From: a virus
Reading direction: 5' to 3' (one strand)
Length of the DNA: 28,183 bases
IMG/VR virus record: IMGVR_UViG_3300034102_002838
Span: 1-28,183 of that record
Shown: positions 1 to 17,191 of the stretch, piece after piece
Numbering within the stretch: position 1 is the first letter of the stretch
Layout of the letters: every line of letters begins with the position of its first letter
Notes under the pieces: model-generated
Databases searched by the model: none
Seen by the model: only the letters and a program-made list of their open reading frames with translations
What the model was told of the DNA's origin: nothing
Position numbers and translations under genes: made by a program

Positions 1-842
1 CAACCCGCAGGCAGCACCGGCCCCTCGGTAGGATGACCGACCAACTCCGCCCGCAGGCGAGGCGTCAGCGGAATGTGCCGGTCCGATCCGGTCTTCGATG
101 TCGCAGGCGCAATGTAGATTTCTTTCGCGCCCACAGCCTCCCAGTCGAGCCGCGCGATCTCTCCCGACTCAGCGTCCGGGCGGATGCCCGCAAAGGCGAG
201 GAGAGCCACCACACGGCGCTCCTCGACCGACTGGCAATGACCGAGCACCGCCTCGACCTCCGCCAGTGTGAGGATCTTGATCTCGGAGCTTTTCCGGTGC
301 CGTTCGCGGTAGTGAAGAACCGCCAGTACCCGCGTCGCCCTGGCATCGATCGTGGAGCGCGCCAATGGTCGATCCTGCACAAGCGCCGCCTCCACCACCG
401 CGCGGTCGATCGTCCCGCAGGGGAGGGATAGGAAACTCTTTGGCAGCCAGTTTAGCATCCGCCTCATTTCCGATTGATACCGCTTCGACCACCGCGCGTT
501 GCCAGCGGCCACCGAGCGGGAGTACCTCTCCTCAAATGTCTCCGAGCCCCCGGTCTGCGTGAGTTGCTTCACCACGACCCTCACAGCCTCGATCAACGAA
601 AGCCCAGTCGGAGCAAGTAAATCGACCGCAAGCGCTGCGTCTGCCGCGAGGTTGGCGCTGATCGCTCTGTTCCGCAGGCCGGAGTCATGCTGGTTTCGCA
701 ACGATGCCGCGAACTTTTTGGCTTCCGACATCGTTCGGAAAAACTTCCGGTGTCGCTTTCCATCCTGCGAGAGAGTCGCCGGAATGGAAACTCTTATCCC
801 CTCTGGGGTCTCTATCGGCACGATGGAAGGACGGCGTGGCAT
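1..842 (-). CDS. int: Tyrosine recombinase (phage integrase), 3' end beyond the window
   Basis: Reading the minus strand from the ATG at 842 gives 280 codons with no stop before the window edge. The visible part begins MPRRPSIVPIETPEG. It has an N-terminal region with a basic stretch (GKRHRKFFRTMSEAKKFAASLR) typical of arm-binding integrases, then a core-binding-like helical region, then the start of the catalytic domain. There, ALLAFAGIRPDAESGEIARLDW carries the first catalytic Arg (in GIRP) and the conserved Glu-Ile-x-x-Leu segment. SKTGSDRHIPLTPRL supplies the catalytic-Lys beta-turn region. The HxxR box and tyrosine lie beyond position 1 and cannot be checked. The enzyme should catalyse integration and excision. 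It reads away from an attachment region 118 bp upstream, the usual int-attP arrangement. Family assignment is firm; integrity is unknown. Confidence 0.9.
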   Translation of the reverse strand, partial: MPRRPSIVPIETPEGIRVSIPATLSQDGKRHRKFFRTMSEAKKFAASLRNQHDSGLRNRAISANLAADAALAVDLLAPTGLSLIEAVRVVVKQLTQTGGSETFEERYSRSVAAGNARWSKRYQSEMRRMLNWLPKSFLSLPCGTIDRAVVEAALVQDRPLARSTIDARATRVLAVLHYRERHRKSSEIKILTLAEVEAVLGHCQSVEERRVVALLAFAGIRPDAESGEIARLDWEAVGAKEIYIAPATSKTGSDRHIPLTPRLRAELVGHPTEGPVLPAG

Positions 843-887: not shown

Positions 888-1115
888 TTAAAATAGGCAA
901 CAACCGTAGGCTTTTGGCAACTATAGATTCTTGAAAAACCTAGGAAACACCTAGAAAACTGGAGCCGCTGGAGAGATTCGAACTCTCGGCCTGCACATTA
1001 CGAATGATTTACCTAGAGAAAAAAACCTAGGTTTTATCAGGAAAACCTTGGAAAAACTGCCCAATCCTGCCCAAACGCAAAAACACTGCCCAAACGCGAA
1101 AAAGTATTTGGGCAG
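862..1115. other. Phage attachment region (attP) with arm-type repeats on both sides of the core
   Basis: CTGCCCAA occurs at 862-869, 873-880, 1057-1064, 1067-1074 and 1086-1093, with an inverted copy at 1108-1115. A second motif, AAACCTAGG, occurs at 936-944 and 1023-1031, with relaxed copies at 949-955, 1011-1016 and 1043-1051. Both families flank the tRNA-derived core on both sides. Integrase arm-type sites are known to flank an attP core in this way. After integration each junction would keep only one arm, so repeats on both sides mean the window carries an unbroken attP or a circularised/virion-form genome. The stretch 843-1128 holds no gene. Confidence 0.7.
960..1006 (-). other. 3' half of tRNA-Thr(CGT): attachment core
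   Basis: On the minus strand this reads as the anticodon loop TTCGTAA (anticodon CGT, Thr), the 3' anticodon strand, the T arm GAGAG-TTCGAAT-CTCTC, the 3' acceptor strand CAGCGGC, discriminator T and CCA. Upstream of the loop the 5' anticodon strand is lost after two bases and no D arm follows, so this is not a functional tRNA. Phages that integrate into tRNA genes carry such a 3' half to rebuild the gene. The host target should be a tRNA-Thr(CGT) whose 5' acceptor strand is GCCGCTG. Confidence 0.8.
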
Positions 1116-1128
1116 TAAATGGCCGCTC

Positions 1129-1320
1129 CTACTTCTTCGTTTTCATCTCGGCCTCGATCTGCTCGATCACCAGTCCAAGGTGATGCGCAGACCAGTTCGC
1201 CATGGTGCGATTTTCACGAGCCGCCGCCTTTCGGATGCGTTCCTTAAGGGCTTTGGGCAATGAAACGCCCAGGAGCGTCTGATCCGGCGAGCGGTCTTTC
1301 GGCTTTTTGGGTGCTGACAT
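1129..1320 (-). CDS. Small ribbon-helix-helix (RHH) DNA-binding protein, leftward switch gene
   Basis: The product has 63 residues. After a short basic tail, LLGVSLPKALKERIRKAAARENRTMANWSAHHLG has the Arc/CopG pattern: a beta strand (residues about 16-21) followed by two helices with a basic face. Its closest relative in the window is the divergent gene at 1421-1624, with which it shares LGV-L-----KER--KAA---RT. RHH proteins act as dimers that insert paired beta strands in the major groove and often autorepress. It is transcribed towards the integrase and away from its partner across a 100-bp control region, like the two sides of a lysogeny switch. The family is fairly sure; the role as repressor or antirepressor is inferred. 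Confidence 0.75.
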   Translation of the reverse strand: MSAPKKPKDRSPDQTLLGVSLPKALKERIRKAAARENRTMANWSAHHLGLVIEQIEAEMKTKK

Positions 1321-1336
1321 GTCTGAATTTACAACA

Positions 1337-1373
1337 CCCTTAAAACCAAGGGAGCGATTTTTTTTTTTTTTTT
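1337..1373 (+). other. Short hairpin and 16-base T tract between the switch genes
   Basis: CCCTT (1337-1341) and AAGGG (1348-1352) can form a 5-bp stem. After five more bases comes an uninterrupted run of 16 T (1358-1373), the longest homopolymer in the window. A weak stem set back from the T run makes a poor intrinsic terminator. A rigid poly(dA:dT) tract shaping the divergent promoters is an equal alternative. The exact run length may carry sequencing error. Confidence 0.35.
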
Positions 1374-1380
1374 CGCGTTA

Positions 1381-1416
1381 TTGACTTGACGCTTTGCGTT
1401 AAACGCTGTTTAACGC
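1381..1416 (+). promoter_or_regulatory. Rightward switch promoter with tandem operator dyads
   Basis: TTGACG (1386-1391) and TTTAAC (1409-1414), 17 bp apart, form a possible sigma70-type promoter. Its predicted start would fall at or next to the ATG at 1421, making the mRNA nearly leaderless. GCGTTAAAC (1396-1404) and GTTTAACGC (1408-1416) are perfect inverted arms. The block also reads as two 11-bp dyads of type GCGTT-W-AACGC starting 10 bp apart (1396 and 1406). A half-site GCGTTA lies at 1375-1380. A protein bound here would cover the -10 element. Symmetry is seen; promoter use is inferred. Confidence 0.65.
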
Positions 1417-1420
1417 GGGC

Positions 1421-1624
1421 ATGCCACACGCAAAAGCAAAAACGACTACCTCCCAAACAGGGAATAAAGTTTCCGATTCAAGCACAGCATTTCTTGGCGT
1501 CAAGCTCTCAAGCGAGATGAAGGAGAGACTGAAAAAAGCAGCCTCACACCAAGAGCGTACAATCAGCGCATTTGCTCGCTACCATCTCTCCAAGGCCGCT
1601 GACAAAACACTCATCCATAATTGA
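1421..1624 (+). CDS. Small RHH DNA-binding protein, rightward switch gene
   Basis: The product has 67 residues and a polar, flexible N-terminus of about 25 residues. FLGVKLSSEMKERLKKAASHQERTISAFARYHLSK follows: a beta strand and two helices, paralogous to the leftward gene at 1129-1320. The ATG at 1421 sits only four bases after the operator dyads and has no Shine-Dalgarno sequence, which suits a leaderless or operator-controlled start. The stop at 1622-1624 is followed at once by the next gene's ATG at 1627, so the two are probably cotranscribed. Two related RHH proteins facing away from each other over one operator block suggests mutual repression, as with Cro and CI but in a different fold. 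Confidence 0.7.
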   Translation: MPHAKAKTTTSQTGNKVSDSSTAFLGVKLSSEMKERLKKAASHQERTISAFARYHLSKAADKTLIHN

Positions 1625-1626
1625 AA

Positions 1627-1818
1627 ATGAAACTGACCCCACAAGCACTTGCCGAGCAGCTCGGCGTCACCAAGCACACCATCTACCGCTGGACTCGCGA
1701 AGGAGTCATCACTCCAGTCGTCGCCGAGCGATCAATCACACGCTTCGATCTCACCGAGGTGATGGCGACACTCAAGGCCCGAGCCAAAAAGAAACAACCC
1801 CGCGCCCTTGTTTATTAA
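1627..1818 (+). CDS. MerR/excisionase-type helix-turn-helix protein
   Basis: The product has 63 residues starting MKLTPQALAEQLGV. The pattern LTPQALAEQLGVTKHTIYRWTREGVITP, followed by a short wing and ITRFDLTEVMATL, is the winged helix-turn-helix of the HTH_17/excisionase family. In such proteins the recognition helix is followed by a strand and a final helix that often names a DNA site. The TTG at 1621 is in frame, but ATG 1627 places the strand at the usual distance from the N-terminus. It follows the RHH gene by two bases. Excisionase (directing integrase to excise) and early transcription regulator are both possible; position near the switch fits either. Confidence 0.7.
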   Translation: MKLTPQALAEQLGVTKHTIYRWTREGVITPVVAERSITRFDLTEVMATLKARAKKKQPRALVY

Positions 1819-1838
1819 CCTCCCTTTTTTTGCATCTG

Positions 1839-1859
1839 CCGTTTAACGGCGTTTAACAA
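1839..1859 (+). promoter_or_regulatory. Second tandem operator matching the switch operator
   Basis: CCGTTTAACGG (1839-1849) is an 11-bp dyad with a single central base. The overlapping GCGTTTAACAA (1849-1859) repeats the pattern exactly 10 bp on. The switch operator at 1396-1416 has the same motif core and the same 10-bp register. It lies in the 59-bp gap before the membrane protein gene at 1878. The likely meaning is that one RHH protein controls both the switch and the early genes to the right. Confidence 0.6.
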
Positions 1860-1877
1860 CACCAACCCAACTACATC

Positions 1878-2156
1878 ATGAAAAGATCCGAACGCTACTA
1901 CCGAGACAGCCGCGCTGCGGCATTCCAATCCGCCACCGCATTCATGTCAGCAGTCGCCGCCGCTTGCTGGATACCCGGCGCGATCGTCGAAAACCAGCAG
2001 GGTGCCTCGTCGATCTGGCTGCTCTGCCTCATCGCCGCATCCGGCGCAGGACTCATTGCCGCCTTCGCAACCGCGACCAATGCCATGCGCTCCTACCGCA
2101 TCGGTGTCGAAGAAGAGTTCGTCGAAGCCCGCCGCGCGATCCGGCCGAGGATCTAA
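1878..2156 (+). CDS. Small membrane protein with two transmembrane segments
   Basis: The product has 92 residues. A basic N-terminus (MKRSERYYRDSRAAAFQ) precedes a hydrophobic segment around residues 17-36 (ATAFMSAVAAACWIPGAIV). A short polar loop (ENQQGASS) and a second segment (IWLLCLIAASGAGLIAAFA, about 46-65) follow, and the tail is charged. This is a helical hairpin in the inner membrane. I do not recognise a family. It is the first gene after the second RHH operator, so it may be under switch control. An immunity, superinfection-exclusion or holin-like role is conceivable, but nothing in the sequence decides. Confidence 0.6.
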   Translation: MKRSERYYRDSRAAAFQSATAFMSAVAAACWIPGAIVENQQGASSIWLLCLIAASGAGLIAAFATATNAMRSYRIGVEEEFVEARRAIRPRI

Positions 2157-2267: not shown

Positions 2268-2843
2268 ATGAAAAAAGCAACCGTTACACTGACAAGCGCG
2301 AGTCCCTACTCGCAGAGCCGACTTTATTCGGCAGAAGTCCCCAAACTCGAAAAGGAAAGCTCAGGCGACTATGATTCGAGAAACTGGAGAGAGCACCAGC
2401 ACTACAATAAAAAGACCGGCGAAGTCTATATCCCGCCGATGGCGATGAAGAACGCGCTCATGGAGTGCGCCCAATACCTCGGCGAGAAGATACCAGGCAA
2501 AGGCAACGCCACATGGACCAAGCACTTCACCGCAGGAATCCTTGTGACTGATCCACTCATGCTCGGAGTGAACAAGGACGAGACCCTTGGCGAAACCTTC
2601 ATGTGCCACGCCGACGGCAAAAGGAACTCTGGTACCCGCGTGCCGCGCAAGTTCCCCGTGATCCACGATTGGAGCGCCACGGCGATTTTCTACATCCTCG
2701 ATCAGACGATCACCAAGGATGTCTTTGAGAAGTACCTCGAAGAGGCTGGCAAGTTCATCGGTATCGGCCGCTTCCGCCCGCGCAACGGAGGATTCTATGG
2801 CCGCTTCCATGTCGGCGACGATCTCGTCTGGGAGGACGCATGA
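2268..2843 (+). CDS. RAMP/Cas7-like phage early protein (tentative)
   Basis: The product has 191 residues. Three features recall the RAMP (ferredoxin-like) proteins of CRISPR effector complexes. The first is an N-terminal strand followed by SPYSQSR. The second is EVYIPPMAMKNALMECAQYLG at about residues 51-71, which matches the 'IPGSSLKGALR' strand-helix transition. The third is FIGIGRFRPRNGGFYGRFHV near the C-terminus (about 163-182), which resembles the RAMP glycine-rich loop plus 'GRF' strand. The whole protein is about the size of a single small RAMP domain. No catalytic His is obvious. It could bind nucleic acid during early replication or recombination. It lies between two A/C-rich leaders and precedes a winged-helix-like gene and an OB-fold protein. 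The fold call is inferred from motif resemblance alone. Confidence 0.45.
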   Translation: MKKATVTLTSASPYSQSRLYSAEVPKLEKESSGDYDSRNWREHQHYNKKTGEVYIPPMAMKNALMECAQYLGEKIPGKGNATWTKHFTAGILVTDPLMLGVNKDETLGETFMCHADGKRNSGTRVPRKFPVIHDWSATAIFYILDQTITKDVFEKYLEEAGKFIGIGRFRPRNGGFYGRFHVGDDLVWEDA

Positions 2844-2849
2844 CACACC

Positions 2850-2873
2850 GGGGGCCGCGCATCCTACACGCGG
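2850..2873 (+). other. Intercistronic GC hairpin, copy 1
   Basis: CCGCG (2855-2859) pairs with CGCGG (2869-2873). It begins with the block CGGGGGCCGCGCATCC, which recurs with one change at 3940-3955. It sits seven bases after a stop codon and has no T tract, so it is better read as an mRNA-processing or stability element than a terminator. Confidence 0.45.
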
Positions 2874-2875
2874 AG

Positions 2876-3036
2876 GATTTCCGACGCACCACGGCACGCC
2901 ACCACACGTCACATCAAATCGCAACACAACACGACAACCTTTTTTCGGCACCGCACAACACCGCACCACACACCACGCCATGACACGACACTTCACAACA
3001 CAACACAACACAACACAACATCCAACTTTCAAAAAT
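2876..3036 (+). repeat. A/C-rich leader B with an (ACAAC)5 array
   Basis: This is the second leader. It opens GATTTCCGAC (2876-2885), then runs A/C-rich with CACGGCAC, a T/C burst near 2940 and five tandem ACAAC units at 2995-3019, ending just before ATG 3037. The strand asymmetry (A and C on top, almost no G or T) is extreme and not coding. An in-frame ORF extension through it encodes only Thr/His/Gln-rich junk. Confidence 0.65.
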
Positions 3037-3540: not shown

Positions 3541-3676
3541 GATTTCCTGCACATCACAACACAGCACTCCACACCACAACAAATCACCACACCACACGCC
3601 ACAACATCCGTTTTTCCGTCACCACACTACACATCGCCACACGGCACGTCGCCGCACAGCACAACACAACACCCCA
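3541..3676 (+). repeat. A/C-rich leader C
   Basis: This third leader again opens GATTTCC (3541-3547). It is dominated by CACAACAC-type units, carries a short T/C burst near 3610 and ends CACCCCAATG. The order 'GATTTCC, A/C tract, T/C burst, A/C tract, start codon' is the same as in leader B. Confidence 0.6.
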
Positions 3677-3999: not shown

Positions 4000-4719
4000 A
4001 TGAAACTAAGCGAAAAAAAAGGCGGTGACTTCGTCCCGCACCCAATTACCGAAGGAACCGTTAAGGGCGTCATCGTCGATGTCACGCCGCTGAAGAAGCA
4101 GCAAAGCCAGTACGGCGAGCGCGAGGTCTTCCGCCTCGTCTATCAGACGGAAGTTGAGAACGAGGACGGCGGCCCCTGCTACATCTGGAGCCGTGCCTAT
4201 ACGCCATCGCTCAACGAGAAAGCAAATTTCCGCAAGGATCTGAAGAAGATCCTCGGCCGCGAACTCACCAAGGCCGAACTCGATGAGTTCGACCCAGATG
4301 TGTTGATCGGTACCGGCGTTAAGTTGATCGTCGAGCACGAGAAAAGCGAACGCGATGGGCAGACCTATGCAGTCATCTCGTTTCTCGGTGCTGACAAGAA
4401 AACCAAGGACAACGAGCCGCTCAAGCCTACCGGTAAGTATATCCGCGTGCAGGATCGTGACACCCAAGGCTCACCACAGAGCGCACCGGCTGCCCCAGCT
4501 AAAGCACCTGCAAAGGACGAACGCGCCGCATGGCAGAAGGTGATCGTTCACATCGGCAAGCACACAGGCAAAGCCCTGGGCGATGTCGATGAGGAAGGTG
4601 TCGAGCTGCTGATCCAGAAGTGGCTGCCGAGCGCGCTCAAGTCGAACAAGTCCGAGGACGCATTGCTGATCGCTGCACTCACCGAGGTGCAGGCACTGCT
4701 CAGCCCGAGCGACTACTAA
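4000..4719 (+). CDS. OB-fold ssDNA-binding-like protein with a C-terminal 'GKHTGK' domain
   Basis: The product has 239 residues. Residues about 17-130 alternate short strands (TVKGVIVDVTPLKK, REVFRLVYQTEVE, CYIWSRAYTPSL, GTGVKLIVEHEKSE, QTYAVISFLG). A helical insert (FRKDLKKILGRELTKAELDEF) separates the third and fourth. This is the layout of phage OB-fold ssDNA-binding proteins. An Ala/Pro-rich linker (SAPAAPAKAPAK, about 163-174) follows. The last 60 residues contain VIVHIGKHTGKALGDVDEEGVELLIQKWLP, like the small domain found at the end of ExoX-type exonucleases and some phage DNA-binding proteins. It probably coats ssDNA in replication or recombination. The neighbours (coiled-coil protein, nuclease, helicase, primase) agree. 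It is followed by a strong hairpin. Confidence 0.6.
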   Translation: MKLSEKKGGDFVPHPITEGTVKGVIVDVTPLKKQQSQYGEREVFRLVYQTEVENEDGGPCYIWSRAYTPSLNEKANFRKDLKKILGRELTKAELDEFDPDVLIGTGVKLIVEHEKSERDGQTYAVISFLGADKKTKDNEPLKPTGKYIRVQDRDTQGSPQSAPAAPAKAPAKDERAAWQKVIVHIGKHTGKALGDVDEEGVELLIQKWLPSALKSNKSEDALLIAALTEVQALLSPSDY

Positions 4720-4841: not shown

Positions 4842-5231
4842 ATGCTCACCATCGCCGAAAAGATCGCCGCACAGCAGGCCGAGAAACAGGGAAAGCCCCA
4901 GCGGCCGCCGGCCGCCTCGATGATCCTCAAGAGGGATACGCCTCCATCGTCGCAAAGCTCGCTCCCGTCACCTCGATCTTTGAGCGCCAGCGTCGGCGAG
5001 GCGATCGACATGACGCCGACCAATGCCGACGCCGAGACAGCGACCTGGCACCAAGCACTGAACGCGTACGACTCGATGCTGTGCCTGATGCGGGATCCAT
5101 ACGAGCCGGAAGTGGTGTGGCTGGCAGTGAGAGCCGACCGACCGAGTCTGCCGCCGATCCTCATCCATCGTCTGCCGTGGGTCATCTACGACCACCCGAA
5201 CACACCACGGCACCCGAACGAGCCGTTCTAA
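4842..5231 (+). CDS. Unknown early protein beginning MLTIAEKIAAQQAEKQGKP
   Basis: The product has 129 residues from ATG 4842, preceded by CACCCA and no Shine-Dalgarno. The frame is open to 4737, but the upstream part covers the hairpin and is unlikely to be translated. An amphipathic helix (residues 1-18) leads into a Pro/Ser-rich linker. A conserved-looking C-terminus follows: WHQALNAYDSMLCLMRDPYEPEVVWLAVR, then LPPILIHRLPWVIYDHPN. I do not recognise the family. Its opening is echoed by LTISERLAAEARAKRDQP in the next frame, suggesting two tandem genes with a shared N-terminal module. Function unknown. Confidence 0.6.
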   Translation: MLTIAEKIAAQQAEKQGKPQRPPAASMILKRDTPPSSQSSLPSPRSLSASVGEAIDMTPTNADAETATWHQALNAYDSMLCLMRDPYEPEVVWLAVRADRPSLPPILIHRLPWVIYDHPNTPRHPNEPF

Positions 5232-6175: not shown

Positions 6176-6409
6176 ATGACACTCGAACACGACATTGCCG
6201 AACCAATTCGCCAACGAGCTGACGACGACACCCAAGAGGACGCGCGCGCACTCAAGGCCAAGGTCGACTACATGCTGACCTGCTACGAGACCACCGTGGT
6301 CGACGCAGCCATCGATGGCGTGATGGTCGACATGGCGCTCTTCAACTCCCTGCGTAACCAGTTCTCCAAGGACATCGCGGCGTGGAAGAATGAAGGAGGT
6401 GCAAGGTGA
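6176..6409 (+). CDS. Small acidic helical protein of unknown function
   Basis: The product has 77 residues starting MTLEHDIAEPIRQRADDDTQEDARALKAK. It appears fully helical, with an acidic first third and a hydrophobic middle (VVDAAIDGVMVDMALFNSLRNQF). It starts four bases after the previous stop and ends in GTGA, sharing bases with the GTG start of the next gene. The sequence AAGGAGGTG at 6394-6402 lies just before that GTG and is one of the few clear Shine-Dalgarno matches in the window. No family recognised. Confidence 0.6.
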   Translation: MTLEHDIAEPIRQRADDDTQEDARALKAKVDYMLTCYETTVVDAAIDGVMVDMALFNSLRNQFSKDIAAWKNEGGAR

Positions 6410-6612
6410 CGCCAAAGCACAGAGCACCAATCGAGAGAATCTTTGAAATTATCAAAATGCTCAAGACTGGAAAGAAGATGAACGCGAGCACACTCGCGAC
6501 CCATTTCGAGGTCGATCGGAAGACGATCCAAAGAGACATCACATTCGTACGAGACAGACTAAAAATGCCGATTTCTTACAACCCACACACAAACTCAATC
6601 GAAACATTATGA
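6406..6612 (+). CDS. Stand-alone DeoR/HTH_11-type helix-turn-helix protein
   Basis: The product has 68 residues from GTG 6406. IERIFEIIKMLKTGKKMNASTLATHFEVDRKTIQRDITFVRDRLKMPI matches the winged helix at the N-terminus of DeoR- and WYL-type regulators, where 'R[KR]T[IV]QRDI' marks the recognition helix. The usual ligand-binding domain is absent. The codons are clearly more AT-rich than in flanking genes, suggesting later acquisition. It starts within the previous stop (GTGA) and its own stop overlaps the next ATG (ATGA 6609-6612). It is probably a transcription factor acting in the early operon. Confidence 0.7.
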   Translation: MTPKHRAPIERIFEIIKMLKTGKKMNASTLATHFEVDRKTIQRDITFVRDRLKMPISYNPHTNSIETL

Positions 6613-7113: not shown

Positions 7114-7211
7114 GCAATAAACCCAAACACACACCCAAGAGCATCACGCTCGGGCTCGTCCTCGCCTACTTCACCGCCGTCAACTGGCTCAGAAACAAAC
7201 TCAACAAATGA
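7110..7211 (+). CDS. 33-residue single-pass membrane microprotein
   Basis: The product has 33 residues: a basic N-terminus (MSNKPKHTPKS), one hydrophobic segment (ITLGLVLAYFTAVNWL, residues 12-27) and a basic tail. The start overlaps the previous stop as ATGA at 7110 and the stop overlaps the next ATG as ATGA at 7208. This exact fit on both sides, plus a sensible membrane topology, is the reason for calling it despite its length. No family recognised. It may modulate a membrane protein or tether the replication machinery. Confidence 0.55.
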   Translation: MSNKPKHTPKSITLGLVLAYFTAVNWLRNKLNK

Positions 7212-7489
7212 ATCCCATCGATCTCGCAAAATCATTCATCCGGCTCTCGAACTATCGAGTCGGTGTGCGTGAAGCTACATGCCTTTTCCTGTGCATCGGC
7301 GGTGCCACCAATACCAGCGTGGCCAAGGCGGCCAAGGAACCCGGCTATGTCGTGCGCAACCGCCTGATCTCGCTGCGCAATAAGGAGCTCATCGAGGTGG
7401 TCGAGCGCAAGGACAAGCCCAACATCTACCGCCCAACCCTACGCGGCCAGACAATCATCAACCATGTGCTCGGAAAGGTGCTGTCGTGA
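7208..7489 (+). CDS. Small winged-helix protein (MarR-like)
   Basis: The product has 93 residues. Helices (IDLAKSFIRLSNYRVGVREATCLFLCI) lead to TNTSVAKAAKEPGYVVRNRLISLRNKELIEVVERKDKPNIYRPTLRGQTII. This is the helix-turn-helix, recognition helix (VVRNRLISLRNKELI) and wing (KPNIYRPT) of a winged helix similar in plan to MarR. It starts at ATGA 7208 and ends in GTGA 7486, shared with the nuclease gene. It may regulate the operon or assist replication initiation. Confidence 0.65.
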   Translation: MNPIDLAKSFIRLSNYRVGVREATCLFLCIGGATNTSVAKAAKEPGYVVRNRLISLRNKELIEVVERKDKPNIYRPTLRGQTIINHVLGKVLS

Positions 7490-12600: not shown

Positions 12601-13568
12601 ATGAATCACAAGGAGTTCAGCAGAAAAGGTGGGTTAGCCAAGACGGAGAAAAAACGCAATTCAGGCATAATCAACCTGAGAAAAGCCAGAGAAGCTCGCG
12701 CAAGAAAAGCGGCCCTTTCAAAGAATGCAAACACTGCGGAGAAACATTTCAATGGGAACACAAATCAAGCGGAAGACTTTATTGTTCAGAAAGATGCTAT
12801 CATGACGCAAAGCTATCCATCAGCAAAGAACGATCAAAATGCTTAACATGTCACGCCTTAGTGGGAATGACTTCAACCGCATCAGGAAAAATGGTTGGCG
12901 TTTCTCACAGCGTAATCTCAGCCCAACGCAAACTATTCGGAATCAATGGTGGAGGATACAAACTAGCTGCGAATGTCAGCGCGTTGAAACGAATGACAAA
13001 ATCATGGGACTCACAAGAAAACTGGCATCAGGAACAATGGGGCGGGGTGGTTGATTCTTATTGGGGAAAAATAACTATACTGGAGGCTGACAAGATAATG
13101 CTCACAGGTAAAGGCCTTGATGTCTCAAACATGAGCGACGAGATGATCCGGTATTACGGAAACCACAAGAAATCAAAAGAGAATGGAAATAGAATTGCTA
13201 GATCAAGATACGCAAAAACAAGAGAAGATCACATCTCTAAAATCAAAAGAAAATTAAGGAATCATGTTTCTAGAGTATACCGCAAATCACAAACAACCAA
13301 GCGCGGCAGAACCATCGAACACCTTGGTTGCTCTATTCATGAAGCAAAAGATCACATTGAAAAACAATTCCGAGATGGAATGAATTGGATGAACCATGGA
13401 TTGCTTTGGGAGATAGACCACATAATACCCATGAGTCATTTCAATCTCAAAGATCAGAGGCAACGATTGATGGTCAATCATTTCACAAACCTACAACCGC
13501 TTCTTAAATCAGATAACAGAAAGAAAGGAAGAAACCTAATAACAAACCACCAGCTTGCATTGCTATGA
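12601..13568 (+). CDS. HNH homing-type endonuclease split by a -1 frameshift
   Basis: The reading frame from ATG 12601 gives MNHKEFSRKGGLAKTEKK, then LRKAREARARK, a known kind of N-terminus for phage HNH proteins. The frame one base back, open to 13568, gives the rest: a zinc finger (CKHCGETF, then CSERC, then CLTC), a basic middle and the HNH box LWEIDHIIPMSHF, LQPLLKSDNRKKGRN. That frame has no ATG before the zinc finger. A -1 slip at AGA AAA GCG (12703-12711) would join the two. Both halves look intact, so it is either a programmed shift, a sequencing error in an A run, or recent decay. Base composition is much more AT-rich than the flanks. Homing endonucleases spread by cutting uninvaded genomes and copying themselves into the break. 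Confidence 0.7.
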
Positions 13569-13651
13569 TACATCGACCATATAGAAAAATTAGGAGGCTT
13601 CCGCCGGAAAATCCTCATTTGGTGTTGGGCCACTCTCGTCAGTCGTCCGAA

Positions 13652-13677
13652 TGTTGCACAATCGGCCTTTGTTGCAC
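13652..13677. repeat. Direct repeats TGTTGCAC before the small terminase gene
   Basis: TGTTGCAC occurs at 13652-13659 and 13670-13677, 18 bp apart. The second copy lies seven bases before the ATG at 13684. Small terminases bind tandem sites near their own gene at cos or pac. This is a candidate packaging or regulatory site. A short hairpin TTCCG-C-CGGAA also lies at 13599-13609. Confidence 0.35.
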
Positions 13678-13683
13678 TGACCC

Positions 13684-14301
13684 ATGGGCATAAGCGAACT
13701 GGCGCAGGCGCTCGGGATCGACAAGTCAGTCGTTTCTCGGCTGGTCAAGAAGGGGATGCCGGTCAACTCGGCGTCCGCAGCGCAGGCGTGGCGTGAGGTG
13801 AACGCGAAGCCGAGGGCCAAGAAAGGCCAAGCAGGGGAGGCACCACCCAAGCCGAAGATCGACGAACCAAAGACCGCGCCGGTCGCGATCCCAGCGCATG
13901 ACGCACCCGAGCCGGACGACGATGACAACACCCCGCGCCAGTCGCTTCGCCGGGCGAGGTTGGCGGAAAAAGTCGGCTACAACGAGCTTGTGCTCTGCAA
14001 ACGGAACGGCGGATCGATCGAGGACATCCGAAAGGCTAACTCGATCTACATCGCGGCCCGAAACAACCGCCACAAAGCCGAACGCGACTTCAAGGAATGG
14101 CAACGCGCGGAGGGGATTCTGCTCTACTTCGACGAGGCCAAGGAGATCGCCGGTCGTCCGCATGTGGCCGCCAAGCAGATGCTCGAAGTGATGCCGAAAA
14201 GCCTCGCGCCTCGCTTGTTCGGCCAACCGCAAAAGGCCATCGAGGCCGCGCTTTCCGAGTGGTGTGATTCTCTGACTGAAGTCATTCGCAAAACCCTATG
14301 A
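13684..14301 (+). CDS. terS: Terminase small subunit (Nu1-like)
   Basis: The product has 205 residues. The N-terminal MGISELAQALGIDKSVVSRLVKKGMPVNSASAAQAWREVNA (1-41) is the winged HTH of Nu1-type small terminases, in which 'MP' plus Ala-rich helix follows the recognition helix. A Pro/Asp linker (about 45-80) precedes a helical assembly domain (LRRARLAEKVGYNELVLCKRNGGSIEDIRKANSIYIAARNN). The protein recognises phage DNA for packaging and delivers it to the large subunit. The stop overlaps the large terminase start (ATGA 14298-14301), which confirms pairing. No other terS candidate lies near. Confidence 0.85.
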   Translation: MGISELAQALGIDKSVVSRLVKKGMPVNSASAAQAWREVNAKPRAKKGQAGEAPPKPKIDEPKTAPVAIPAHDAPEPDDDDNTPRQSLRRARLAEKVGYNELVLCKRNGGSIEDIRKANSIYIAARNNRHKAERDFKEWQRAEGILLYFDEAKEIAGRPHVAAKQMLEVMPKSLAPRLFGQPQKAIEAALSEWCDSLTEVIRKTL

Positions 14302-16022: not shown

Positions 16023-16211
16023 TTACAAGTCCAGAAACAACTCATCCGCCACGCTGGAAATGCTGGCGGATTTTTTTTTGGCCACGCTGCGAAGTTTTGC
16101 GTTCGCCTCATGAGAGATCGACAGCGCGATCGTCACGCGCGTTTTTCCTGCCGGTCGTCCTGCACCCTCGCGAGCGCCGCCTCTGGTTTCTTTCTTTTTC
16201 ATAAATGTCAT
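16023..16211 (-). CDS. Small RHH-type regulator with GGAREGAGRP N-terminus
   Basis: The product has 62 residues starting MTFMKKKETRGGAREGAGRPAGK. GGAREGAGRP is the familiar basic N-terminal patch of phage/plasmid DNA-binding proteins. The rest, TRVTIALSISHEANAKLRSVAKKKSASISSVADELFLDL, is strand-helix-helix, an RHH domain. ATG 16211 is chosen because ATGA (16211-16208) overlaps the ligase stop. It lies downstream of the ligase on the same strand, so the pair is one leftward operon. It may repress that operon at the inverted repeat near 17212-17240. Confidence 0.7.
   Translation of the reverse strand: MTFMKKKETRGGAREGAGRPAGKTRVTIALSISHEANAKLRSVAKKKSASISSVADELFLDL
16044..16079 (+). terminator. 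Intrinsic terminator after the large terminase gene
   Basis: ATCCGCCA (16044-16051) pairs with TGGCGGAT (16064-16071), and the T run 16071-16079 follows. It acts on rightward transcripts. It lies wholly inside the last codons of the leftward RHH gene (16023-16211), so the same bases encode protein on one strand and end transcription on the other. An additional dyad, GTAAGC-AGC-GCTTAC, lies at 16012-16026. Confidence 0.85.
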
Positions 16212-17191
16212 GCGCTCATATCCCAAGTCTCGCGGAATCCAATAAACACCGGAAACCGTGGGGCTTGTTTCGCGCCGCTCGGCTGATGGCTGAACTTCAC
16301 GATCTTGCCGACAAGGCCATCGCGGTTTTCCCACAGGTTCACGCGGTCAATACCGCCTGCGTTGTGATTGTATGCCAGCCGGAACTGCACGCCGGTCGTG
16401 AGGTTGCGAACCACGAAGCCACCGAGTTCGCCGCGTCCGATCATGCCAGCCTTGGAAAGTCCGCGCTTGGTATTTCCAAAGGCGTCTTGGACTGCCGCGT
16501 TTTGGTTGGTCATGCCTTCGTAAGTGGAAACCACCACCGCCTCGGCATCCTCAAAGCGCTTGATCTTGAGAAGGTAGCCTTGCTTCACGGTCGAGCGCCC
16601 GCACTTGTAAGGTGAATCAGGCGTGCGAACCATCACGCCCTCATAGCCTTCGGCCAAGCAGGTCTGTACATAGGCAGCGAGATCGTCGGTTCCTTGGACT
16701 TCCACAGGAAGCACCTTCACGACTCGATCGGAATCTGGAAGAGCGGCCAGAGCCTTGATGCGCTCGCTGTACGGCGTGCCGGTCGAGGTCTGCACATAGT
16801 CGAAGACATGGAAAACGAAATCGGGCTCGCCATCGCTGGAACCGATCGCGCTGGTCGTCTCGCTGAATGTGCCACCGCGCAGCATCAACTCGCCGTCCAC
16901 GCCGTCGGGAAGATTGGCCTCGATCCATTCGCGCACAAAGCGATTGGGAATAGGGATGAATGAACGGGTTAGAGCACGACCGCCAACCTTCAAGCAGCGG
17001 ATGCCGTCGAGCTTCGGCGTGGCGAGCAAGGGAAACGCCAACTCCTCATGTTCATCGCAGCGACTGGCAAGCATCGGCTTGGTGATCTCGGCAGGATACA
17101 CGACCGGCGCTTTCGCGGGACGGGCGCTGAGCTCTGCCTTCATGCTCTCGACGATTGAGAACAGATCCTCGGCGCTGATGGTGACTTGCAT
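16208..17191 (-). CDS. ATP-dependent DNA ligase (phage type)
   Basis: The product has 327 residues. Nucleotidyltransferase motifs are in order: motif I KLDGIR with catalytic Lys 60, motif III-like DGEL (99-102), motif IIIa FDY (130-132), motif IV EGVMVR (184-189) and motif V LLKIKR (207-212). The OB domain follows (about 220-327), with GGFVVRNLTTGVQFRLAYN and GLVGKIVKFSHQ. All catalytic residues are present. It seals nicks in replication or repair. Length is that of minimal phage ligases. It is transcribed opposite to the surrounding head genes and placed between the large terminase and the gpW-like joiner, as a cargo (moron) gene with its own promoter. Confidence 0.92.
   Translation of the reverse strand: MQVTISAEDLFSIVESMKAELSARPAKAPVVYPAEITKPMLASRCDEHEELAFPLLATPKLDGIRCLKVGGRALTRSFIPIPNRFVREWIEANLPDGVDGELMLRGGTFSETTSAIGSSDGEPDFVFHVFDYVQTSTGTPYSERIKALAALPDSDRVVKVLPVEVQGTDDLAAYVQTCLAEGYEGVMVRTPDSPYKCGRSTVKQGYLLKIKRFEDAEAVVVSTYEGMTNQNAAVQDAFGNTKRGLSKAGMIGRGELGGFVVRNLTTGVQFRLAYNHNAGGIDRVNLWENRDGLVGKIVKFSHQPSGAKQAPRFPVFIGFRETWDMSA

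Follow-up and report, generated by a model that had tools for sequence, protein, structure and literature searches.

Most textbook phage switches use HTH repressors. In phage P22, mnt and arc are divergent genes, and the 21-bp operator of Arc is occupied by two Arc dimers. Mnt and Arc are paralogous small ribbon-helix-helix (RHH) repressors at a lysogeny control locus, with Mnt active in lysogeny and Arc autoregulating during the lytic phase (PMC7549136, PMC2629481). Their target is the antirepressor gene ant, which belongs to a moron in the late region, and primary immunity is provided by the repressor C2 (PMC8022706, PMC6550527). Dimers of another RHH protein, RelB, bind adjacent half-sites cooperatively on one DNA face (PMC2812701), and omega binds heptad repeats (PMC4803016). 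Repressors with a Peptidase_S24 (S24) domain were described in a 2026 paper with an N-terminal HTH (PMC13148647). Here we analysed a viral record in which two RHH genes, RHHm and RHHp, diverge beside int/att. The analysed DNA, referred to below as the window, is the whole IMG/VR record of 28,183 bases; the record is cut inside int and the genome is therefore incomplete at that end. Comparison with related loci leads us to regard the pair as probably an exchangeable immunity cassette of a temperate Verrucomicrobiota phage, in which both halves of a divergent switch would be RHH proteins acting at two candidate operators, O1 and O2.

A divergent RHH gene pair beside int/att

As the earlier note had stated, two paralogous small RHH genes diverge in this region (Table 1). 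They are separated by 100 bp, and their products align over 33 aa with 42% identity (E 9e-10). The best Pfam matches of the pair were to RHH_5 (E 1.7e-4 and 3.9e-4; 21.7 and 20.5 bits), neither reaching the curated RHH cutoff of 26 bits. AlphaFold models of RHHm and RHHp (pLDDT 81 and 75) each contained two helices in the RHH register, with the strand not assigned in these monomer models. When both models were used for a PDB fold search, nearly all of the best matches were RHH proteins (Arc, CopG, PutA, TacA and AmrZ), none with a significant E value (E>0.1), and a PHROG search returned a weak match to an Arc-like repressor. By these models, both proteins have the predicted strand-helix-helix fold of about 45 residues that marks the RHH (Arc/MetJ/CopG) superfamily. 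An alignment to Arc predicts L/G/S in RHHm and F/G/K in RHHp at the three ribbon positions that read bases, which suggests related, not identical, DNA preferences. Neither protein matched any of 50,697 phage records; among 388 genomes of the phylum, RHHp had one weak match, a lone RHH gene with a different palindrome upstream (L104). A third small RHH-like protein was seen by inspection at 16023-16202 (-), with no Pfam match; its gene immediately follows one for an ATP-dependent DNA ligase (16208-17191) and runs on the strand opposite to the late genes.

The genes around the pair are those of an integration and early region. The complete integrases of kin have 361 aa (L016) and 355 aa (L021), and that of L026 matches Pfam Phage_integrase; the Pfam search returned no match for the truncated part in the window. 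The att-core sequence (GGAGCCGCTGG...) is kept in the window and in L008, L009, L016 and L021, including kin with other cassettes, and no complete tRNA gene was found. The excisionase-like HTH gene sits between RHHp and O2, and the early genes to the right of O2 include a primase-type protein. No match to an antirepressor gene ant was found downstream, where the genes encode the HTH_17 protein, the 92-aa protein and replication proteins. CA-rich repeats (CACAACACAACAC...) fill the early-region intergenic spacers 2159-2270, 2840-3036 and 3541-3676, and the spacer after the orf1878 homologue is much shorter in L016 than in the window.

RHH proteins are common in toxin-antitoxin and partition modules (ParD/RelB, or ParG/omega type), where they bind repeats for autoregulation or DNA segregation, and the present pair shows weak profile similarity to the TacA, RelB and FitA antitoxins. 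However, no toxin or ParA family matched above the Pfam and PHROG cutoffs beside either gene; int/att and an excisionase-like gene flank the pair, and CI-like repressors replace the RHH gene in kin. We consider a module of this kind highly improbable, and both the toxin-antitoxin and the partition readings were rejected.

Table 1. Features of the RHH cassette in the window, and RHH loci elsewhere (positions with a locus name refer to that locus)
Feature	Position	Strand	Description
Tyrosine-integrase-type gene, N-terminal part	3-842	-	C-terminus beyond the window edge; by homology to complete kin integrases
Likely att core	961-1005	-	tRNA 3' half (Thr-like by inspection); lies between int and the RHH cassette
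RHHm	1129-1320	-	63 aa; candidate maintenance repressor (CI/Mnt-like role); RHH by AlphaFold model, paralogy and a profile match below cutoff; role by slot comparison
Small hairpin and poly-T tract	1337-1374	.	CCCTT-N6-AAGGG, then poly-T; poly-T length differs among near-identical kin
Candidate RHHp promoter	1386-1414	+	TTGACG, 17 bp, TTTAAC; -10 inside the second GTTTAAC core of O1; weak evidence
O1, candidate operator	1396-1416	.	Perfect 21-bp palindrome GCGTTAAAC-GCT-GTTTAACGC; two GTTWAAC cores, 10 bp apart
RHHp	1421-1624	+	67 aa; opens the early operon; proposed Cro/Arc-like partner
HTH_17/MerR-type small protein, excisionase-like	1627-1818	+	Pfam HTH_17 E 3.1e-8; PHROG 66 (excisionase and transcriptional regulator) E 1.6e-7
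Candidate second promoter	1829-1857	+	TTTGCA, 17 bp, TTTAAC; -10 inside the second GTTTAAC core of O2
O2, candidate second operator	1841-1857	.	GTTTAAC-GGC-GTTTAAC; spacing as in O1
orf1878	1878-2156	+	92 aa; first gene past O2; also in kin with other cassettes
RHH-S24 repressor	L026:4149-4757	-	Faces a divergent RHH gene; Pfam Peptidase_S24 E 2.5e-12
RHH-S24 repressor	L106:1489-2145	+	Faces a divergent RHH gene
RHH-S24 repressor	L109:1012-1704	-	Faces a divergent RHH gene
L094 RHH regions	L094:1-1000 and 13398-14020		Virus contig, possibly archaeal; strong GTTWAAC excess around the RHH genes

Two candidate operators share a paired 7-bp core

The earlier note had described two GCGTT-W-AACGC dyads 10 bp apart, with the same paired arrangement about 440 bp away before the next early gene. 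The second part of this description is confirmed by O2, and the 10-bp spacing stands, while the 11-bp motif is exact for the first O1 dyad only: the second in O1 is CTGTT-T-AACGC, and at O2 the two dyads are GCCGTTTAACGGC and GGCGTTTAACAAC. A single perfect 21-bp palindrome describes O1 better than two 11-bp dyads do. None of 300 dinucleotide-shuffled versions of the intergenic region equalled its 9-bp arms around a 3-bp centre. The unit common to O1 and O2 is the 7-bp core at 10-bp spacing, with core centres at 1401/1411 and 1844/1854 and the pair centres 443 bp apart. In all 28,183 bases, GTTWAAC-N3-GTTWAAC occurs at exactly two places, 1398-1414 and 1841-1857; the shuffle expectation was 0.00, and two pairs were found in 0 of 100 shuffles.

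O1 and O2 are placed alike on the candidate promoters, the second core serving as a -10-like box at 17-bp spacing. A strict sigma-70 scan reported no promoter at O1 or O2, and the assignment is therefore only suggestive. Since the second core of each pair coincides with a candidate -10 box, the repeats could in principle be promoter elements alone (two TTTAAC boxes), with the O1 palindrome incidental. A -10 box, however, accounts neither for a perfect palindrome with 9+9 arms nor for a 10-bp pair that occurs twice, both of which are beyond chance, and kin with another cassette lack the GTTWAAC pairs. A pure promoter role was rejected, and we assign it hardly any probability. The hairpin and poly-T tract next to O1 could act as a terminator for rightward transcription ahead of it, or as a site of slippage within the leader of RHHm.

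The RHH genes and candidate operators are exchanged together

Two kin (L003 and L004) carry the same RHH cassette at 98-100% identity. O1 is identical in both, although the window-type cassette is known only from such near-identical kin and the conservation of O1 itself says little. Both O2 cores are kept as well, the sole change lying in the N3 linker, against a difference of 13-17% in the flanking coding DNA. Two further kin, L016 and L021, have a primase 98% identical and keep the gene after O2 (85% and 49% identity of the orf1878 product, with 82-85% in L009/L016), yet carry a different cassette, made up of a longer minus-strand HTH-type protein and another small plus-strand gene. They retain an HTH protein 40% identical to the excisionase-like product, and the GTTWAAC pair is absent at both the O1 and the O2 positions. 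The RHH genes have thus been exchanged for an HTH-type gene and the pairs have gone with them; presence or absence of O1 and O2 therefore matches that of the RHH genes. In related phages, where the earlier note proposed to look for gene pair and dyads, O1 and the O2 cores are kept in L003/L004, and pair and dyads are missing together from L016/L021.

The locus thus combines a divergent pair beside int/att, heading an early operon, with exchange as a cassette for HTH repressors in kin, which is the layout of CI/Cro-type switches. Judged from these comparisons, the slot between int/att and the early operon appears to be an exchangeable immunity cassette.

The phage belongs to a Verrucomicrobiota-infecting group; the hosts of its relatives are Verrucomicrobiota. 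The host phylum was identified via genome contigs found through the downstream gene (L077-L088), which do not carry the RHH cassette. By terminase, the nearest isolated phage is Akkermansia phage Moulinsart (34.5%), whose annotation lists repressors and regulators.

Sister cassettes include RHH repressors with an S24 domain

Searching with the downstream gene at 4000-4719 yielded 54 viral loci. In kin, the same slot holds either HTH_3-type repressors (L030 and, as read from sequence, L051, L060 and L062) or RHH proteins. Further divergent RHH|RHH pairs were found at 9 loci, six of them viral (L026, L031/L027, L063, L061, L122 and L136) and three in bacterial genomes (L106, L107 and L109). In 3 of these 9 (L026, L106 and L109), the protein on the repressor side joins its RHH to a C-terminal Peptidase_S24 domain, with the Ala-Gly cleavage site and the catalytic Ser (in GxSMEP) and Lys intact in all three and the S24 part matching the CI-type family PHROG 4. 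L109 adjoins a gene with a Pfam integrase match, and L106 an integrase-like gene without one. The S24 domain of L064 has 77% identity to the L026 domain and follows a different N-terminal part; the DNA-binding part has therefore been exchanged. By inspection, four repressor-slot proteins appear to have an HTH followed by an RHH-like segment: L016:2558-2965 (-), L021:2405-2836 (-), L064:4092-4847 (-) and L105:822-1625 (+). S24 is present in the last two and absent from the first two.

The RHH-S24 combination had no record among 50,697 phages. Our literature search found no paper joining ribbon-helix-helix with peptidase S24, which is weak evidence of novelty with subscription journals mostly outside the search; within the same bounds, none was found joining ribbon-helix-helix with immunity repressor and temperate phage. 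RHH-S24 repressors have apparently not been described before.

In a tree of RHH domains, the plus-side and minus-side proteins clustered apart (2 changes, compared with 6.9 on average after shuffling; 0 of 500 shuffles as low), the alignment of 42 columns being too short for fine branching. The window pair fell outside both clusters and grouped with L104, L032, L033 and L094. We read this as a two-RHH layout that may have arisen at least twice, or as a window type that replaced the other type.

The candidate operator follows the repressor-side ribbon in sister cassettes

The ribbon VSAPIRM and the palindrome GTAGTCA-N3-TGACTAC between the divergent genes are common to L026, L122 and L106. L106 was found through protein similarity alone, and in 378 Verrucomicrobiota genomes the palindrome occurs once, exactly at the L106 gene. 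In the same way, the ribbon TVKFPQST and the palindrome TAGTAGAWTCTACTA are common to L136 and L109. Within each of two ribbon classes of the sister cassettes, then, identical predicted DNA-reading strands come with an identical palindrome between the genes. Loci of one class differ in their HTH neighbours and in their plus-side RHH ribbons; therefore the operator follows the repressor-side RHH. As a marker the GTAGTCA palindrome does not suffice in the viral collection, because only 2 of 50 contigs that contain it have an RHH neighbour (both already known) and 48 have none detectable. At 3 of 10 RHH|RHH loci (L031, L063 and L107) the palindrome was not above chance. Between the divergent RHH genes of L061 lies a perfect 23-bp palindrome, GTAGCGGTAGCGGCTACCGCTAC (5081-5103).

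These data bear on whether the GTTWAAC pairs are read by an RHH protein at all. The gene for the excisionase-like HTH protein lies between O1 and O2; Cox/Xis proteins recognise direct repeats spaced by about one helical turn, and Cox-like proteins can act as both excisionase and repressor. It could therefore be the HTH protein that binds the pairs. In the sister cassettes, however, the palindrome follows the RHH ribbon while the HTH neighbours differ strongly (L026 vs L122), and L016/L021 keep the HTH protein without the pairs. On these two observations Cox-type binding was rejected; we think it quite improbable.

For the window operator, a DNA-only search with the GTTWAAC pattern gave 13 unrelated contigs. 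One of them, L094, has two RHH genes with the ribbon FLGV[KR]I (FLGVK in the window) and GTTWAAC-type pairs, 10-bp and 12-bp pairs included, just upstream of both. It has 16 cores where 0.6 would be expected, and some of the 16 lie in repetitive coding DNA. Although post hoc, this match is suggestive of a link between ribbon and operator in the window. Among the 378 genomes, two matches to the window operator pattern were found, both without RHH neighbours, and no GTTWAAC sites lie upstream of the RHH gene of Methanobacterium virus PhiF3.

A proposed switch of two RHH proteins

From the genes, the candidate operators, their exchange as a unit and the operator-ribbon matching in sister cassettes, we infer binding by RHHm and RHHp, cooperativity, the dominance of one protein or the other at each site, and the lysogeny outcome. 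RHHm dimers would sit next to each other on one face of the DNA, occupying the two GTTWAAC half-sites of O1; the operator geometry fits such binding of paired half-sites by dimers. RHHm would thereby mask the -10 of the rightward promoter together with its spacer, and keep the early operon (RHHp, the excisionase-like HTH protein and replication genes) silent. Occupancy of O2 would prevent initiation at a second start, or stop transcripts from extending into the remainder of the early region. Once produced, RHHp would recognise the same half-sites, shut RHHm off and limit its own operon, much as lambda Cro or P22 Arc does. That the switch runs in this direction, with RHHm as the maintenance repressor, is proposed from the slot comparison. 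RHHm has no S24 or other sensing domain, and the model gives no account of prophage induction.

RHHp alone might instead autorepress the early operon at O1 and O2 in the manner of Arc or CopG, with RHHm accessory and primary immunity encoded elsewhere or in the missing genome end. The cut inside int and the lack of an inducer domain in RHHm would suit this arrangement, and the P22 RHH pair serves only secondary immunity (PMC8022706). RHHm, however, occupies the slot where kin have CI-like repressors, RHH-S24 included, and the remaining regulators that were sampled (in the window, HTH_11 at 6406-6609 and a weak TrmB-like match at 7208-7486) are rightward, lie inside the early operon and are not CI-like. 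We therefore regard autorepression by RHHp alone as unlikely and retain the two-protein switch.

The earlier note's idea of a lysogeny switch made of two RHH proteins thus gains support, by comparison only, from the immunity slot, from the CI-like HTH or RHH-S24 repressors that kin have there, from candidate operators that travel with the RHH cassette and vanish on its replacement, and from the operator tracking the repressor-side ribbon in sister cassettes. More broadly, we lean slightly towards a class of Verrucomicrobiota phages whose primary switch is built on RHH|RHH pairs, with at least two origins. The nine other loci would form the second type, in which SOS-type self-cleaving RHH-S24 repressors would be a previously undescribed RHH counterpart of lambda CI, and specificity would be readable from a short ribbon.

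Such a switch would place a different DNA-binding fold on both sides, joined in sister phages to the self-cleaving domain of CI and LexA. It would amount to a natural swap experiment on how far switch behaviour depends on the DNA-binding fold, and the ribbon-operator matching may offer a simple system in which sequence could predict immunity specificity. In our own judgement, these proteins are also possible repressors for genetics in Verrucomicrobiota, such as relatives of Akkermansia, where few are known.

Comparison with known systems

The design was called unusual in the earlier note. That is apt for the primary CI/Cro slot, but the design is not unprecedented, the Mnt/Arc pair of P22 immI being a known pair of RHH repressors. 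What is apparently new here is the presence of RHH pairs in the primary CI/Cro slot, seemingly of two origins, and the RHH-S24 repressors. Like P22 immI, the window has two paralogous, divergently encoded RHH repressors, and the 21-bp operator of Arc is close to the 21-bp palindrome of O1. In contrast to immI, the window pair lies in the primary slot beside int/att and heads the early operon, with an excisionase-like gene, a second candidate operator and no ant. CopG, RelB and omega autorepressors place RHH dimers on adjacent half-sites, as proposed here, but each is the only RHH protein of a plasmid or toxin-antitoxin operon and not one of a divergent pair at a phage immunity locus. The lambda-type immC (CI/Cro) resembles the window cassette in position, divergent layout, an operator over the early promoter, cassette exchange and, in some sister repressors, S24; it differs in having HTH instead of RHH on both sides, and RHHm carries no S24 domain. 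The repressors of L026, L106 and L109 share their S24 residues with the LexA/CI family of autoproteases and differ from it in their N-terminal domain, which is RHH.
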